From contig OU744446.1 in NCBI GenBank assembly GCA_916610825.1, forward strand, positions 37,053,833-37,117,832: a stretch of DNA of 64,000 nucleotides. Reading direction: 5' to 3'. Below are positions 12,401 through 58,800 of this stretch, in pieces. How positions within the stretch are numbered: the stretch's first letter is position 1; the number at the start of each line of letters is the position of its first letter. The DNA is from Haliclystus octoradiatus (lineage: Eukaryota > Cnidaria > Staurozoa > Stauromedusae > Haliclystidae). A model generated the notes under the pieces. It was not told the DNA's origin. It made no database searches and was given only the letters and a program-made list of their open reading frames with translations. Position numbers and translations under genes: made by a program.

Positions 12401-15400
12401 CTCAGCATTGATATGAGGCACATTGCCTACTGCTGCTTCAGCAGGAAATGCTATTGGCCACTATGACCTGTATGCTTGTATCAGCAGTTTGCAATCGAGT
12501 CTCTGGGCATTTTGGAAACCTACAAAGCTGTTATTGCTAAGACTCACTAAAACTTTAACCTATTAAGTTTGGAAGGACAATAATGTTTACACATCAATCT
12601 CACAAGGACACGGTAATGTGATAAAATCAAAGGATTTATTGTATTATGTAAGTTATGCTCTTGTGTTCTAACCTCCTGCTGACTAGAGATCAAGTATGTT
12701 TTTCTCTTGGATGAAATCTATTTCACTGCAAAATGATGCCATGTTTTCTACAGGGATAATAGCCATGAATTTACCAAGGGTGGCACAAAAGTGTTAGTCT
12801 TCTGGGAGAGACTATATTCAAATTGCTTTGTTTCAAAAATTCAAAGTTATAAAGAAATGTTACGAAAATTTCTGAAGTTTGACTTACTCTGAAAACTATG
12901 ACAAGAATTTCAAAGCCTGAAATGTTTTATGAAATCATAAAATCATAACTCAAATAAAGAACAATCTCGATAATTGAAAATCTTCTCAATTTTTGCTATA
13001 CCTTCCTGGAACCAGAATCTCCTCACTTTGTAGCCACCTGCTTGAACCCCTGCGAAAAACAATTCAGGAATTCACGTATAGTTCATGAGCGTTAAGTGGC
13101 CTCGAATTTCATGACTTGTTCCTCGAATTTCATGACTTGTTCATGAAATCCTGAACTGTTTTTTGTAGGGAACACATAACCTTTTTGAGAAAAATTTATG
13201 ATAATAAATCAAAATGTCACATAATAATATCTTTGCGATTTTAATTTACTTTGGTTTTGGTTTTTAGTGCCAATCCCAAAGAAAGTTACCAACATGAACA
13301 GTCCGAATGCAAGCAAAGTTTCTGTTGTGATTGATTTATCATTCCATCATTTGATGAGTGAAAAGGTAAGTAGGTACCCTTGCAAAAATATTAGTGGGGT
13401 TCATGAACAATTTATGAACGTCAAATGGCTCAGTTTTTATGAACTGTTCATAATGAACTGTTTTAGCAGGGGGTTAAAGGTAATCTATGACTTAATTCTT
13501 TCTAGATTAGTCGCCAGTTAAAACCGCCTTGGCAAGGGCTGCTAAATTACCTTAGTTTCATAAACAGTTCATAAAGAGTCATAAAAATTATGCCATTTCA
13601 CGTTCATGAATTGTTTTAACAGGGGAGGAATTATTTTAAAATACATAGATATGAAACAATAATAATAGAGTCAAGAAAGACACACCATTTTTGCTGTTAC
13701 TTGAAGTTTCACGTTGTTAAGCGATCATCAGACAGAATACAATTGAAGAATTGAACAGAAGAACAGAAGAATTGTATTCTGTCTGATGATCGTTTAACAA
13801 CGTGAAACTTCAAGTAACAGCAAAAATGGTGTGTCTTTCTTGACTCTATTATTATTTACCGCTCTGCTATTTACAAGCATTGAGCACTGTTCACCTGCCA
13901 ATACTTTTAAATTTTTATTAAATTTGAAACATATTATAGATATGAAACAATATATAATATGATGAAAGTTGTCTTACTGATTGAGCATAGTGCGCAATGC
14001 TATACAACAGAGCTTTAAATTAGTATATTTAAAACAATAATTGTAACAATATAAGTACACAAAACCACCAATTCAGAACTATCCATAAACTTGATATGAA
14101 TTGATCATAAAAAAGTTTGTAAAAGTTTGCTATTTGATTTTCATAAACTTGTTTTGCACCGGAGGAGAGGCCTACGGCATTCCAAGATACTGGATCAATT
14201 TATGATATGTTCTTTGAATAATTATAATTTAAGGATCAACGGAAAACTATCAAACAAATTTGTCGTTGTTATGCTAATAATCGTCATTCGGAACACCCTG
14301 TCCAGGTAAGCTGCATTTGGATAACTTTCTTTTTTATTTTCAATGACATCTGTTAGTCTAGGTATGATTCAATACCAGTAATCATTGTACATTGATACCT
14401 AGCCTTAGTGGCTTCGTCATAGACCCCTGAATTTATTCATGATAGAATAGGGCCTTTGTAAGACAGTCTTAGGAGGATTAGCTTAGATAGCAGAGCAACA
14501 GTACTTCATGCAGATCTGATTATATCTAATCAATTTTGATTTATATCCCCTAAGGTCAACTCACCATTGACTTTATTGTAAAACATCAAGTGGGTACAAT
14601 CTAAGGATGGGGAATGGAAGGGTTCAGAGGGATTTGCATTGCGAGTAGTCTGCGTTACAGACCGCGATTCATTCACAAAAGAATAGGGTCTGTGTGATTT
14701 GCACAGTTCTCTGTCCCGTCACTCTACGAAAACGTAAAGCAGAAGTTTCTGATCGATGCAGGGTAAATCTATTGTTCTTAGATAATAAATTCATCACCTC
14801 CGTTCGATCAATTAATTGTCATAGCTACGAAGCCTAGAATAGAACTTATTGCGTTCATGTCAACTGAAGTGAACAAAGTAATGTGAGAATCCTGGTGAGA
14901 ATCATCTAAATCTTGCATAATTATGTGACATCAATCTTATTCTGATACAAGGCCCGGACAGAGAAACCGAGCAATTCACACAGACCCTATTCTTTCGTGA
15001 ATGAATCGCGGTCTGTAACGCAGGCTACACTGCGAGTGGCTTCTATGCATCGTTGCGCATTGACAATCAAGGCCTATTTGCATGAAATCTGTTGAAATTG
15101 ATCTGCAACATCGCTGCTGAGATCAATAAAGAAAATTTGAAATCACTCCATTCTACTAGAAACAGAAGAGTTGTATAAGCGCATGTGGTAGGGTGATACT
15201 GTCTCAAACACTATTTACTGTCACATCGTTGGCCCGCTTAGTAAATAATGTCAGTGCTCCGTTGTAACCACAAACTCGTGTCTCTGATATGCAAAGTCAG
15301 CTTGGCTGGTTTTCTGTCAAAGACCGAATAACATTGGATCAACTAATGTTCACCCATAAAAAAATTAAAATTTAACCACTCTCCTCCTGTGCTTTCCACA

Positions 15401-55800: not shown

Positions 55801-58800
55801 CCAATTAATGCTGGCCATTTCGGAGCACAACGACTACTTGACAAACGAGCGCTGCATCCGAAACCTACTGAGATACTTCTCTCAATGCTGACAAAAATAA
55901 CTGAGGTGTGTTAGTTATGCTATCTATACCAGGATGTCACAAAGGTCTTGATATTCAAGAAACCAAGTTGACAGATTGAAGAATTTCTACAACTGATTTT
56001 AAAATGCTTCATAATTCTGAAGAAAACTTTACAAAAATTTCTGAAATTTAACGTAACTTGAATCACGATGACATTAGTTTCAAAACATAGAAAGTATGAA
56101 ATCATAATTTTAAATGAGAGCACTATCTTGATAATTAAAAACATTCTGATTTTGTGCTGGTTGGCCTTCTAGGAAACAGGTTCCCGGGATCCCACACTTT
56201 GCGACAGCCTGAAGGGAACATGCAAAAGCAGCCAGTTACCGTATGTAACCAGATTATTATTATGCTATTATTATTATTATTATTTTATTATTCTGCCAAA
56301 ATTGTGTCGAACCAAAACAAGTTACAGTCCAACAAAAATTAGAAAACTTTAATCCCAGATTTCAAAGGGGATAAAGCATGTTTAAAAGGAACTTGCTATT
56401 TTTATAAAATTCTAAAGATAATGTTCAGAAGAAGATGTTGAGACGTTATAGGTTTCTACAAGGCAAAATCTTTTGTCATCAGACTCATATTTCATGAGTT
56501 CCTAGAATTTGAAATCACCAGAATTTTCATTAACAATTCAAGAACAGTTTAACAACATTTAATGAAATGTTTTAGGGAAGATCTTTGATTGAAAAGAGTC
56601 AAAAATCTTCCCTGATGTAAAATGTTCATGAATTTATGAACATGGAATTGTTTATGAATGTTGAATGAAATAGTCCATTTAAAACAGGCCATTTACCCTG
56701 CGAGAAACAATTCAGCAGTTAACACTGTTAAACTGTTTATTAAATGTTTATAAGGTTTTCAAATAGTAATAATAATAATATAATAATATTAATAGGTGGA
56801 TTGTTCCACACCAGTTCTTGGTATAGTGTTCCATGAAATTAATCAGAGCATTTATATAAAATGAGAGTCAAAAATGAAACAATCTAGATTCCGCAACTTC
56901 AAGTTTCACACCAGAAGGTGATCATCAGGCGATTTATTTCAACTATATTTTTGTAGGATAGTTGAACTAAATCGCTTGATGATCACCTTCTGGTGTGAAA
57001 CTTAAAGTTGCGGAAATCTAGAATGTTTCATTTTTGACTCTCATTTTATATAAGGTTTTCATAAACAGTTTATGAACTCAACAAATTTTGTCACTATGTG
57101 TGTTCTTAGCCATGACAGAAACCCCATTCTTCTGAAAAGGATGATGTAAATTTTAATCTTTACTTGTATTCTGCTACCTGTTTAGGGAAAAGCCAAGATG
57201 GTTGCTTCGTCTGCTACAGTAAATCGATTTATGATCGATGATCTATGTAGTCTTGGTTTTGGTGATCGACCTGTAATCATCCAATCAAAACAGGTCTCCA
57301 ATCCAGATGATTCGGACGTCCCAAAACAAATTGGTCATCATTATGTTATGATTCCTGATAATGCAATTGTCAGTAAATCAGTATTAGTTAAAAAGTAAGC
57401 GAATGAAAAGTAAAAAAAAAAAATAGGCGTGACAACAGCATCATCATAATCATCAGAATTTATTCACAACTTGAATAAGCTAAAAGCTGTTATTCACAAG
57501 ACTGATTTATAAATATATATATATAACTAGTGAAATGAACCCGCTCCGCTGGGTGAAATTTTGAAAGAAAAATATAGAAAATTTAATTACTAGAAGTTAG
57601 TCCAAGTGATAAATAAACAATAGAACTGAAGGTCAGTCGAGTGTGAAAGATATTGCGTGACAAACATGAGAATGTAATTCGTTCTCTCTATGGAGCTGCA
57701 AGAGAGATCCTACGAAAAAAATACGCTTCAGACCGTCAATTGAAGGAGTATAAAGTTATGAACATAAAACATGGCCTATGTTGCCGCAAAAAATTATAAG
57801 ATACCCCACGGAAAGTATGGATTTGATACTGTTACCATGAGAAGCGTAAATCTCGAATACAGTAGATACAGACATACATACATGGACGTTTATATAGTAG
57901 ATAACACTACAATTTTACAACAATATACTTTACAGGATAGATATTTGAAGCAGAGGGGTCAAGGGATTACAGTCCTTTGTTGGATATCCTCAACCTCCTC
58001 CCCCTGTAGAAAACAGTTCAGGAGTTCATGGACAGTTCATGAATGTTAAATGGGCCACATTTTCATGAACAGTTCATGAACATGAACTTTTTTAATCATT
58101 TATTCAATTATGAAATTATCTTCTACAGATAATTTTCTGGAAATTCTGTTTCCATCCTTTTACAAATGTAGCTACAACAAACAGTTTGTTTTGATTGAAA
58201 ATTTATATTTTTCTGATTTATAGGCTAGTCTTCAACAAAATATCCAGATTATAAAATATGGACAATGTTCCAGGATTCTAGACAAACTACTTTGCAGAAG
58301 ACCATCACAATTACAGAAGGTTGTCAATTATTGTCAAGATTGTTTTTTTGTTAAAAATTATGGTTTTGAATTTCATTATTTCGCTGTTTTAAATTCATGT
58401 GATCATGCCTCAAAGTAAATAAGATTTCAGAAATTTCCCCTGAGAAAAATAGTTCAGGAGTTCATGAACATTTCATGAACGTTAAATAGTCCTGATTTCC
58501 CTAAACTATTCATGAAGAAGTCCATGGAAATTGAGCTATTTAACGTTCATAAACTCCTGAACTGTTTCGCTGTTCAATCTCAGATTTTTTATCTGAAAAT
58601 GTGGTTCCTGGAAGCTAAAACTTTTGTCTGTGACATCCGCGTGATAATTTTTCTGGATTACTATTCAACAACACCCTGATTATATGTTTAACAACTTGTT
58701 CATTTGATTTACTTCAAAGGCTGCTTAATTCATTCAACCATACTTCTGCATTAGTGTTTGTTCATAGAAGCAATTCAGTAGAGAAATTTGTCAAAGAATT

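Follow-up and report, generated by a model that had tools for sequence, protein, structure and literature searches.

Palindromic elements with an adjoining module

Hammerhead-like segments are found at four loci of the window, i.e., the entire 64,000-nt stretch of DNA analyzed here, named copy A (13.7 kb), copy B (55.2 kb), copy C (56.9 kb), and copy D (22.7 kb). Each lies within a near-perfect palindrome of 165–202 bp, a feature absent from the preliminary description, as are the flanking module and target-site duplications described below. In copy A, an 87-nt mirror arm (13658–13744) is 99% complementary to a sense arm (13770–13856) that carries a candidate minimal type I hammerhead with an intact core (13779–13820, forward strand), followed by a conserved bulged-hairpin module (GCTCTG..TGAGC; 13861–13885, forward strand). 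The element (274 bp, 13662–13935, forward strand) is bounded by an exact target-site duplication (13645–13661 and 13936–13952, forward strand, 17/17 identical) overlapping the palindrome end by 4 bp.

The three other copies are on the reverse strand. For copy B, the palindrome (55194–55363; arms 55194–55274 and 55283–55363, 93%; strict arms 55194–55266 and 55291–55363) includes an intact core in its module-side arm (55242–55281), with the module at 55163–55191, a TTA-rich run past the module, and (TTA)n also beyond the far side of the palindrome. Copy C spans 287 bp (56762–57048) between 13-bp duplications (TATAAGGTTTTCA, 13/13, 56749–56761 and 57049–57061, forward strand), which overlap the palindrome end by 5 bp and are no longer than the best direct repeat obtained in 200 shuffles. 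Its palindrome (56852–57053, arms 56852–56946 and 56958–57053, in two pieces) has an intact core in the module-side arm (56891–56932), a C3 to T change in the mirror arm, and a module at 56828–56849. Copy D includes a palindrome (22687–22851, arms 22687–22752 and 22786–22851, 92%), a module (22660–22683), and a full-length but degenerate hammerhead in which the GAA part of the core is mutated (22722–22766), while its best candidate direct repeat was not significant (43 of 300 controls were equally good).

Additional family members were also found. Copy F (133 bp, 16994–17126, reverse strand) is flanked by 14/14 identical duplications (TAGGTGGCCTTTAT, 16980–16993 and 17127–17140, forward strand), and combines a module (17027–17050) with a short palindrome (17056–17128, 34-nt arms, 97%, loop of 5) in which the same middle stretch, that of the hammerhead, is missing from both arms. 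In three further copies the module occurs without a palindrome close by, namely G (13992–14013, reverse strand), which we read as a 5′-truncated copy, H (30058–30081, forward strand), and I (23530–23551, reverse strand), which gave the weakest match among them (nhmmer E 0.006). Copy E is a lone arm (18978–19034, forward strand) that begins within the hammerhead, has no partner arm, and is by eye closest to the arm of copy D (nhmmer E 2.7e-6). Six loci in the window form close palindromes, and five of these six are family members with an adjoining module: four came from an automated call, and copy C, in which the module is 2 bp from the palindrome end, was added after being missed through an indel. 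An inverted repeat at 60062–60218 was considered as a far relative (nhmmer E 0.37), but its stems misfit by eye, and it was left out of all counts.

Taken together, the larger element consists of a palindrome at one end, the conserved bulged hairpin adjoining it, and then an AT-rich stretch in several copies. AT-rich runs occur on the module side of A, B, C, and D, and a clear AT-rich tail was not found in F and G. The dispersed repeats proposed in the preliminary description are real, but their true unit is larger than described (274 bp in A, 287 bp in C), with the hammerhead inside the palindrome. A pattern of the module, written from the copies themselves, matched the window nine times, whereas 100 Markov sequences gave 0.46 matches on average and never more than 3. 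A module 12-mer with up to three mismatches yielded 76 matches vs 67 expected, and only its five single-mismatch matches, in copies A, B, D, G, and F, were followed. Double-sided changes affect two of the eight pairs of the module hairpin, and the RNAalifold covariation term is slightly unfavorable (+0.42). One of the nine pattern matches, at 62.6 kb, looks tRNA-like instead. Read on the opposite strand, the module itself is similar to a tRNA D-arm, and together these two observations would suggest the opposite orientation.

Hammerhead core and stem covariation

Copies A, B, and C share the same order of elements, i.e., stem I, CTGATGA, T, stem II, T, GAA, ACT..AGT, H, and stem I. The core (CUGANGA and GAAA), with U16.1 and H17 correctly placed, is intact in these three copies, and in D is obtained only across two arms, as already stated in the preliminary description. 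The hammerhead core previously proposed at four loci holds for A, B, and C but not for D, in which neither arm is intact: the module-side arm includes CTGATGA and a U.U mismatch, but has GGA at the GAA position and a stem II ending in CACA, while the other arm includes GTGAAACT and lacks CTGATGA. Three helices are possible around the core of A, B, and C (stem I of 4 pairs, stem II of 4, and stem III of 2–3), with stem I open-ended, and both the type I topology and the dispersed nature of the family proposed earlier are supported in the window. Stem I of copy C can be read as four pairs (TCGC/GCGG) including one T.G, and in copy B, since a 3-pair stem III leaves a 2-nt loop, two pairs and a 4-nt loop are likelier. 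The cleavage site predicted earlier for copy A (13816/13817) follows from hammerhead numbering. A descriptor combining CTGATGA, stems I and II of at least 3 pairs, stem III of at least 2 pairs, and GAAA retrieved 3 sites out of 23 CTGATGA matches in the window, and a single site in total across 200 equally long first-order Markov sequences.

Compensating changes in stems I and II, also noted before, are borne out by the pairing of 24/24 stem cells in A, B, and C. Including copy D combined from its two arms leads to 32/32 paired cells, and its left arm alone to 30/32; this covariation is based on four copies from one window, one of which is patched from two arms. When the 3′ stem letters were shuffled by column, the observed pairing was reached in 13 of 200,000 shuffles for the four copies (D from two arms), 75 of 200,000 with the left arm of D alone in the set, and 415 of 200,000 for A, B, and C only, figures which are not strict probabilities because the copies share ancestry. 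Stem III is also nearly self-complementary in A (8/9 positions), B (8/8), and C (8/9), which has a chance of ~6% per copy given its AC..GT ends, vs only 4–6 of 9 positions in D and E. The A, B, and C segments look like compact candidate type I hammerhead ribozymes. An exact scan for the linear motif in viral and GTDB contigs identified 20 loci (7 viral, evidently one homologous site judging from their flanks, and 13 in GTDB contigs), with 4/4 stem II pairs in one and at least four stem I pairs in one, and none of the 20 displayed both stems.

Established models did not recover these segments. Hammerhead covariance models from Rfam yielded no match at the gathering score or E ≤ 10 in the whole window, nor in the single arms of A, B, and C, copy D being covered by the two whole-window scans. 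The hammerhead is also not the minimum-energy fold: it lies 1.8–3.7 kcal/mol above the minimum in isolated cores, and stem I has a pairing probability of ≤0.01 when longer RNA from copies A, B, and C is folded. A C/D box snoRNA reading of TGATGA was rejected, as CTGATGA lacks the purine of the C box (RUGAUGA), neither a D box (CUGA) nor a closing stem was seen by eye, and the snoRNA matches in the single arms of copies A, B, and C were all sub-threshold.

A G10.1–C11.1 pair is usual beside the hammerhead core. Neither this nor any other pair is found at this position here, and the U.U mismatch previously reported for all copies was indeed found in 4/4, i.e., in A, B, C, and the module-side arm of D. 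The suggestion that this mismatch marks an unusual subtype was not upheld, as U.U alone does not make a new subtype: in the axolotl hammerhead HHR_Amex2, helix II likewise starts from a U.U mismatch at its base, and stem III has two pairs (PMC7229834).

Origin of the palindromic copies

We consider it probable that these copies are the remains of a short non-autonomous retroposon, and that the palindrome arose from snap-back, self-primed copying at insertion. The 5′ end of the element RNA would include a leader of ~10–35 nt and a minimal type I hammerhead of ~42 nt (4-bp stem I, 4-bp stem II on the U.U mismatch, 2–3-bp stem III), followed by a segment of ~40–50 nt that contains TTGACTC and an AT-rich stretch, the bulged hairpin (GCUCUG..UGAGC), and an AT-rich, at times TTA-rich, tail. 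A trans-acting reverse transcriptase, from a LINE or more likely a Penelope-like element, would copy this RNA from the tail at an AT-rich target, after which the cDNA end would snap back and prime its own second strand. The resulting insertion would bear a mirrored ribozyme region head to head with the real one, and, given the orientation assumed here, A, B, C, D, and F do show their 5′ region copied in inverted form, head to head, around a junction palindrome. The hammerhead would work on the non-palindromic source RNA, perhaps for 5′-end processing and perhaps as a dimer, the latter being possible because A, B, and C each have an almost self-complementary stem III. The present palindromic insertions are probably not working ribozymes in place, since their read-through RNA would lock the hammerhead in a long hairpin.

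In favor of snap-back copying, arms are 87–96% alike within a copy and 45–71% between copies, five of the six close palindromes have a module beside them, and in F both arms lack the same stretch. Homogenization of the arms at the DNA level could alternatively cause the within-copy likeness. An intact hammerhead is found in the module-side arm of three out of four copies and in the mirror arm of none (0/4), and the mirror arm is the incomplete one in B and D, biases which derive from four and two copies only. Arm mismatches are probably changes that occurred after insertion. Hammerhead cleavage as a source of primers for arm renewal was rejected, as mismatches are, by eye, not clustered on one side of the cut.

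Near-perfect inverted arms and a short loop are also typical of foldback or palindromic MITEs, and the copies may instead derive from such a DNA transposon, with the core acting as a DNA-level motif (e.g., a transposase or replication site), an accidental likeness to hammerheads, and arms kept alike by hairpin-templated repair. The near-perfect inverted repeats and small loops would be expected under this scenario, the window includes another long foldback (4327–4987, 277-nt arms), and a ribozyme finds no support from Rfam or folding. We nevertheless consider this origin unlikely: stems I and II covary within a single arm, and the repeat is asymmetric, with the module on one side only. Unlike in a symmetric foldback with a short fixed duplication, the module and further sequence lie outside the palindrome but inside the duplications in A, C, and F, and the 13–17-bp duplications and module-only copies are better suited to retroposition.

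Quite improbable, in our assessment, is a tRNA-headed SINE transcribed the other way, in which the module would be the A box, the 3′ half a structured hairpin, and the hammerhead-like sequence restricted to the second arm. On that strand the module is D-arm-like by eye (GCTC..GAGC) and the sequence at 62.6 kb, also judged by eye, fits the same pattern, but no conserved B box was found by eye, and the distance from module to duplication is 33 (F), 50 (A), and 66 bp (C), although a tRNA start should leave only a short gap there. Copies A, B, C, and D also have AT-rich runs at this end, and such a SINE would have its sense hammerhead in the mirror arm, where none is intact. Finally, the palindrome itself is very unlikely to be the working form, whether as a hairpin RNA, viroid-like with a hammerhead on both polarities, or as a siRNA/miRNA precursor: although A and C have a full-length hammerhead on both strands (each with a single damaging change on one strand), the palindromic stretches folded as RNA reach −93 to −144 kcal/mol, and weak miRNA-precursor matches under gathering scores occur at A and C, there is at most one intact hammerhead per element, it lies in the 3′ arm on either strand where the 5′ arm would trap it, and tandem copies were not found in the window.

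Building on snap-back retroposition, a more specific and tentative possibility is that these copies represent a so far undescribed tiny retroposon (monomer of ~190 nt, estimated from A and C, the two hammerhead copies with clear ends), with an active minimal hammerhead at its 5′ end and routinely inserting as a snap-back hairpin. Full-length copies would then be born palindromic, and source lineages would drift except for the ribozyme core and the bulged hairpin. If true, the self-priming step that has been inferred for Penelope-like elements would be fossilized in every copy. The candidate ribozyme is among the few parts conserved in so short an element, whose insertions seem to keep the copying step as palindromes, and this makes two questions directly testable, namely whether the ribozyme cuts before or after copying, and whether second-strand synthesis is self-primed. 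Hammerheads in palindromic or snap-back retroposons were not recognized, from titles and the first lines of abstracts, among the matches listed from the open-license literature, and whether minimal hammerheads are active in Penelope-type elements, and in what role, is described as still a mystery (PMC7761336).

Relation to known retroelements

SINEs are short and non-autonomous, and the copies resemble them in their 13–17-bp duplications, AT-rich tail in several copies, and truncated copies. They differ from SINEs in that, read in the favored orientation, they lack a clear head derived from tRNA, 5S, or 7SL and have a candidate ribozyme at the presumed 5′ end. Compared to foldback MITEs, the differences are the asymmetric module side, the longer duplications, the module-only copies, and the covarying stems within one arm.

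Penelope elements form inverted repeats joined head to head, with palindromes where the copies meet, an arrangement interpreted as self-priming, and they favor AT-rich targets (PMC3846280). Penelope-like elements also carry minimal hammerheads (PMC7761336), and the candidates described here are similar to the minimal type I hammerheads of Penelope-like elements and Terminons in being retroelement-linked and dispersed, with a short or near-absent stem III (PMC7761336 and PMC7229834). As in this group, no loop–loop contacts were evident, and a self-complementary stem III would permit dimer action. Unlike in Penelope-like elements and Terminons, no Penelope gene was seen beside these copies, which span only 274–287 bp (A and C), with U.U at the base of stem II and a conserved bulged hairpin after the hammerhead. 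No Penelope reverse transcriptase or GIY-YIG endonuclease was detected with Pfam in 10 ORFs, out of 30 ORFs of at least 110 aa, and elements this short would be non-autonomous anyway. Among other proteins of the window, a ZSWIM8-like protein retrieved one relative, and a gypsy reverse transcriptase retrieved 326 proteins; the named ones among the 120 matches listed came mostly from animals (Trichuris, Trichinella, a spider, a springtail, a sea cucumber, a tapeworm, and a cuttlefish), which supports an animal source and nothing narrower.

Animal non-LTR retrozymes are likewise small, non-autonomous, AT-rich retroelements with a type I hammerhead, and the estimated ~190-nt monomer of A and C is within the 170–400 nt reported for them (PMC7229834). 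However, retrozymes are organized as tandem repeats with one hammerhead per unit, whereas the elements in this window are single, dispersed, palindromic copies.

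Hammerhead cores with compensating stems

Three of the four loci described preliminarily as hammerheads carry a complete core with paired stems, namely copy A at 13.7 kb (13779-13820, plus strand), copy B at 55.2 kb (55242-55281, minus strand), and copy C at 56.9 kb (56891-56932, minus strand). Read along the sequence, each follows the order stem I, CTGATGA, T, stem II, T, GAA, ACT..AGT, A or T, stem I. The observation was only partly confirmed because the fourth locus, copy D at 22.7 kb, is intact in neither palindrome arm. A descriptor search of the whole window returned A, B, and C and no other site, and yielded a single site in total on 200 first-order Markov sequences.

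Stem II reads CGTT/AACG in A, CGCA/TGCG in B, and CACC/GGTG in C. The compensating changes proposed for stems I and II were borne out: all 24/24 cells are paired across A, B, and C (matched by 415/200,000 column shuffles), as are 32/32 with D combined from its two arms (13/200,000) and 30/32 with D represented by its module-side arm alone (75/200,000), these shuffle figures being guides only because the copies are related by descent. As an outside control, the linear motif was matched exactly at 20 loci, 13 from GTDB contigs and 7 from viral contigs, the latter evidently a single homologous site; four stem II pairs occurred in 1/20, at least 4 stem I pairs in 1/20, and both in 0/20.

Two proposed checks gave no support: no Rfam hammerhead model matched at any threshold tried, and the hammerhead fold of isolated A, B, C, and combined D (+0.4, -0.8, -4.4, and -2.4 kcal/mol) lay above the minimum energy (-3.3, -3.6, -6.2, and -5.1 kcal/mol). 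When A, B, and C were folded as longer monomer RNA, pairing probabilities were at most 0.01 for stem I, 0.07-0.79 for stem II, and at most 0.10 for stem III, and folding-energy shuffle z-scores ranged from -0.52 to 0.84. Hammerheads are often under-scored by energy models that lack tertiary contacts; despite this, the missing Rfam and folding support remains a gap in the ribozyme case.

Palindromes, module, and flanking repeats

All four hammerhead sites lie within near-perfect inverted repeats, at 13658-13744/13770-13856 (A), 55194-55274/55283-55363 (B), 56852-56946/56958-57053 (C), and 22687-22752/22786-22851 (D). Arm identity is 87-96% within one copy vs 45-71% between copies, and the hammerhead falls in the second arm transcribed, whichever strand is read. 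RNA across the palindromes is computed to form hairpins of -93 to -144 kcal/mol, which would trap the hammerhead, so that a selecting function would have to act on RNA free of the mirror arm (the arm away from the module), or have acted in ancestors. Close palindromes (arms of at least 30, loop of at most 60) gave seven rows, two at one locus; five of the six loci are A, B, C, D, and copy F (element at 16994-17126, minus strand), whose palindrome (17056-17128) is without the hammerhead middle.

A common sequence, the module (GCTCTG..TGAGC), was found beside one arm only in the copy flanks. It was flagged automatically beside four of these five palindromes; that of C (56828-56849), adjoining the palindrome end at 56852, was missed because an indel shortened the arm. 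A 12-mer of this flank, with one mismatch allowed, added two sites, F and G, and a profile built on A, B, C, D, and F also found G (13992-14013, minus strand; E 4e-7), H (30058-30081, plus strand; 4e-6), and I (23530-23551, minus strand; 0.006), which have no close palindrome. The consensus of the module folds into a hairpin bulged by two bases; double-sided changes occur in 2/8 pairs, while RNAalifold scores the covariation slightly unfavourably (+0.42). A loose pattern derived from these very copies hit the window nine times, vs 0.46 times on average and at most 3 times across 100 Markov sequences; its tRNA-like match at 62.6 kb was left out of the family. By eye, further small hairpins lie past the module in several copies (55132-55147, 56795-56812, 22643-22654, and near 30100-30130); they differ in sequence (e.g. 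GATAGATAAATCTATC, GGTGTGGAACAATCCACC), which suggests another structure preserved without sequence.

Exact direct repeats of 17, 13, and 14 bp flank A, C, and F, with 3, 1, and 2 of 300 random window 57-mers scoring as high; for A, D, and F the controls peaked at 57, which suggests overlap of some control pieces with the stretch under test. Among 200 shuffles the best score was 12 for A; for C it was 13, which C's repeat equals but does not exceed. The repeat of F needs care, as other GGTGGCC copies surround it. The repeat of D was not significant (43/300 controls as good as its best), and that of B cannot be scored within its TTA microsatellite.

Favoured direction and candidate helper

In hammerhead sense, the parts succeed one another as mirror arm, loop, hammerhead-bearing sense arm, module, and variable part, followed in A, B, C, and D by an AT-rich run and, where seen, the duplication. 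Four observations speak for this direction. Of the four copies, three have an intact hammerhead in the module-side arm and none has one in the mirror arm (which shows one C.A in stem II in A, C3 changed to T in C, and no CTGATGA in B and D); in both B and D it is the mirror arm that is incomplete, which chance could give; palindrome-free copies retain the module, as expected from 5' truncation; and the AT-rich runs lie on the module side. Evidence against this direction is that the module on the other strand resembles a tRNA D-arm; the opposite orientation, a tRNA-headed SINE with the module first, is nevertheless rated improbable.

Snap-back of the cDNA end would make the two arms of any copy alike regardless of lineage, and would account for the absence of the same middle part from both arms of F. 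For Penelope elements, head-to-head inverted repeats and junction palindromes have been described and interpreted as self-priming, there with an antisense template, along with a preference for AT-rich targets (PMC3846280). They are also reported to carry minimal hammerheads, whose role is described as a mystery (PMC7761336); in the Anolis element, the ribozyme reportedly cut in vitro only with the protein present and was dispensable for insertion in vitro (PMC11167929). The palindromes, targets, and hammerheads together suggest a Penelope-type enzyme as the likeliest, though putative, helper; none of the 10 ORFs scanned was seen to encode one.

Neighbouring features and known hammerheads

By its gene and transposon content the window looks like animal DNA. 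It holds apparently multi-exon ZSWIM8-like (exons at 27430-41989, minus strand; ZSWIM4-8_C and TPR_ZSWIM8 Pfam matches) and DEAD-box helicase genes, and Gypsy-type (582-3462, plus strand) and BEL/Pao-type (46690-49419, minus strand) retrotransposon coding regions. A large foldback element (4327-4603/4711-4987; arms of 277 nt, 98% complementary, loop of 107 nt) holds none of the three descriptor sites. A further repeat, based on the palindrome GTTCATGAACAGTTCATGAAC, recurs at 11.9-12.3, 18.8-19.6, 30.2-30.4, 43.5, and 59.0 kb, and by eye one apparently interrupts copy E, a lone arm (18978-19034, plus strand), at ~19.03 kb. An inverted repeat at 60062-60098/60182-60218, with a CTGACGA..GAAAC arrangement and also GTTGCAGA, weakly resembles the hammerhead arms (nhmmer E 0.37) but was not counted, its stems misfitting by eye. 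The tRNA-like sequence at 62540-62635 (minus strand), with D-arm-like and T-arm-like stretches by eye and no Rfam match at gathering score, is possibly a tRNA-derived SINE; a separate stretch at 17324-17394 (minus strand) matched tRNA in Rfam above gathering score (39 bits).

Tandem retrozymes are already known, as are minimal type I hammerheads in retroelements. A dispersed single-copy element under 300 bp with its hammerhead in a snap-back palindrome was not found among the papers listed by searches of an open-licence library. As in these copies, helix II of the axolotl HHR_Amex2 is reported to have a U.U mismatch at its base (PMC7229834).
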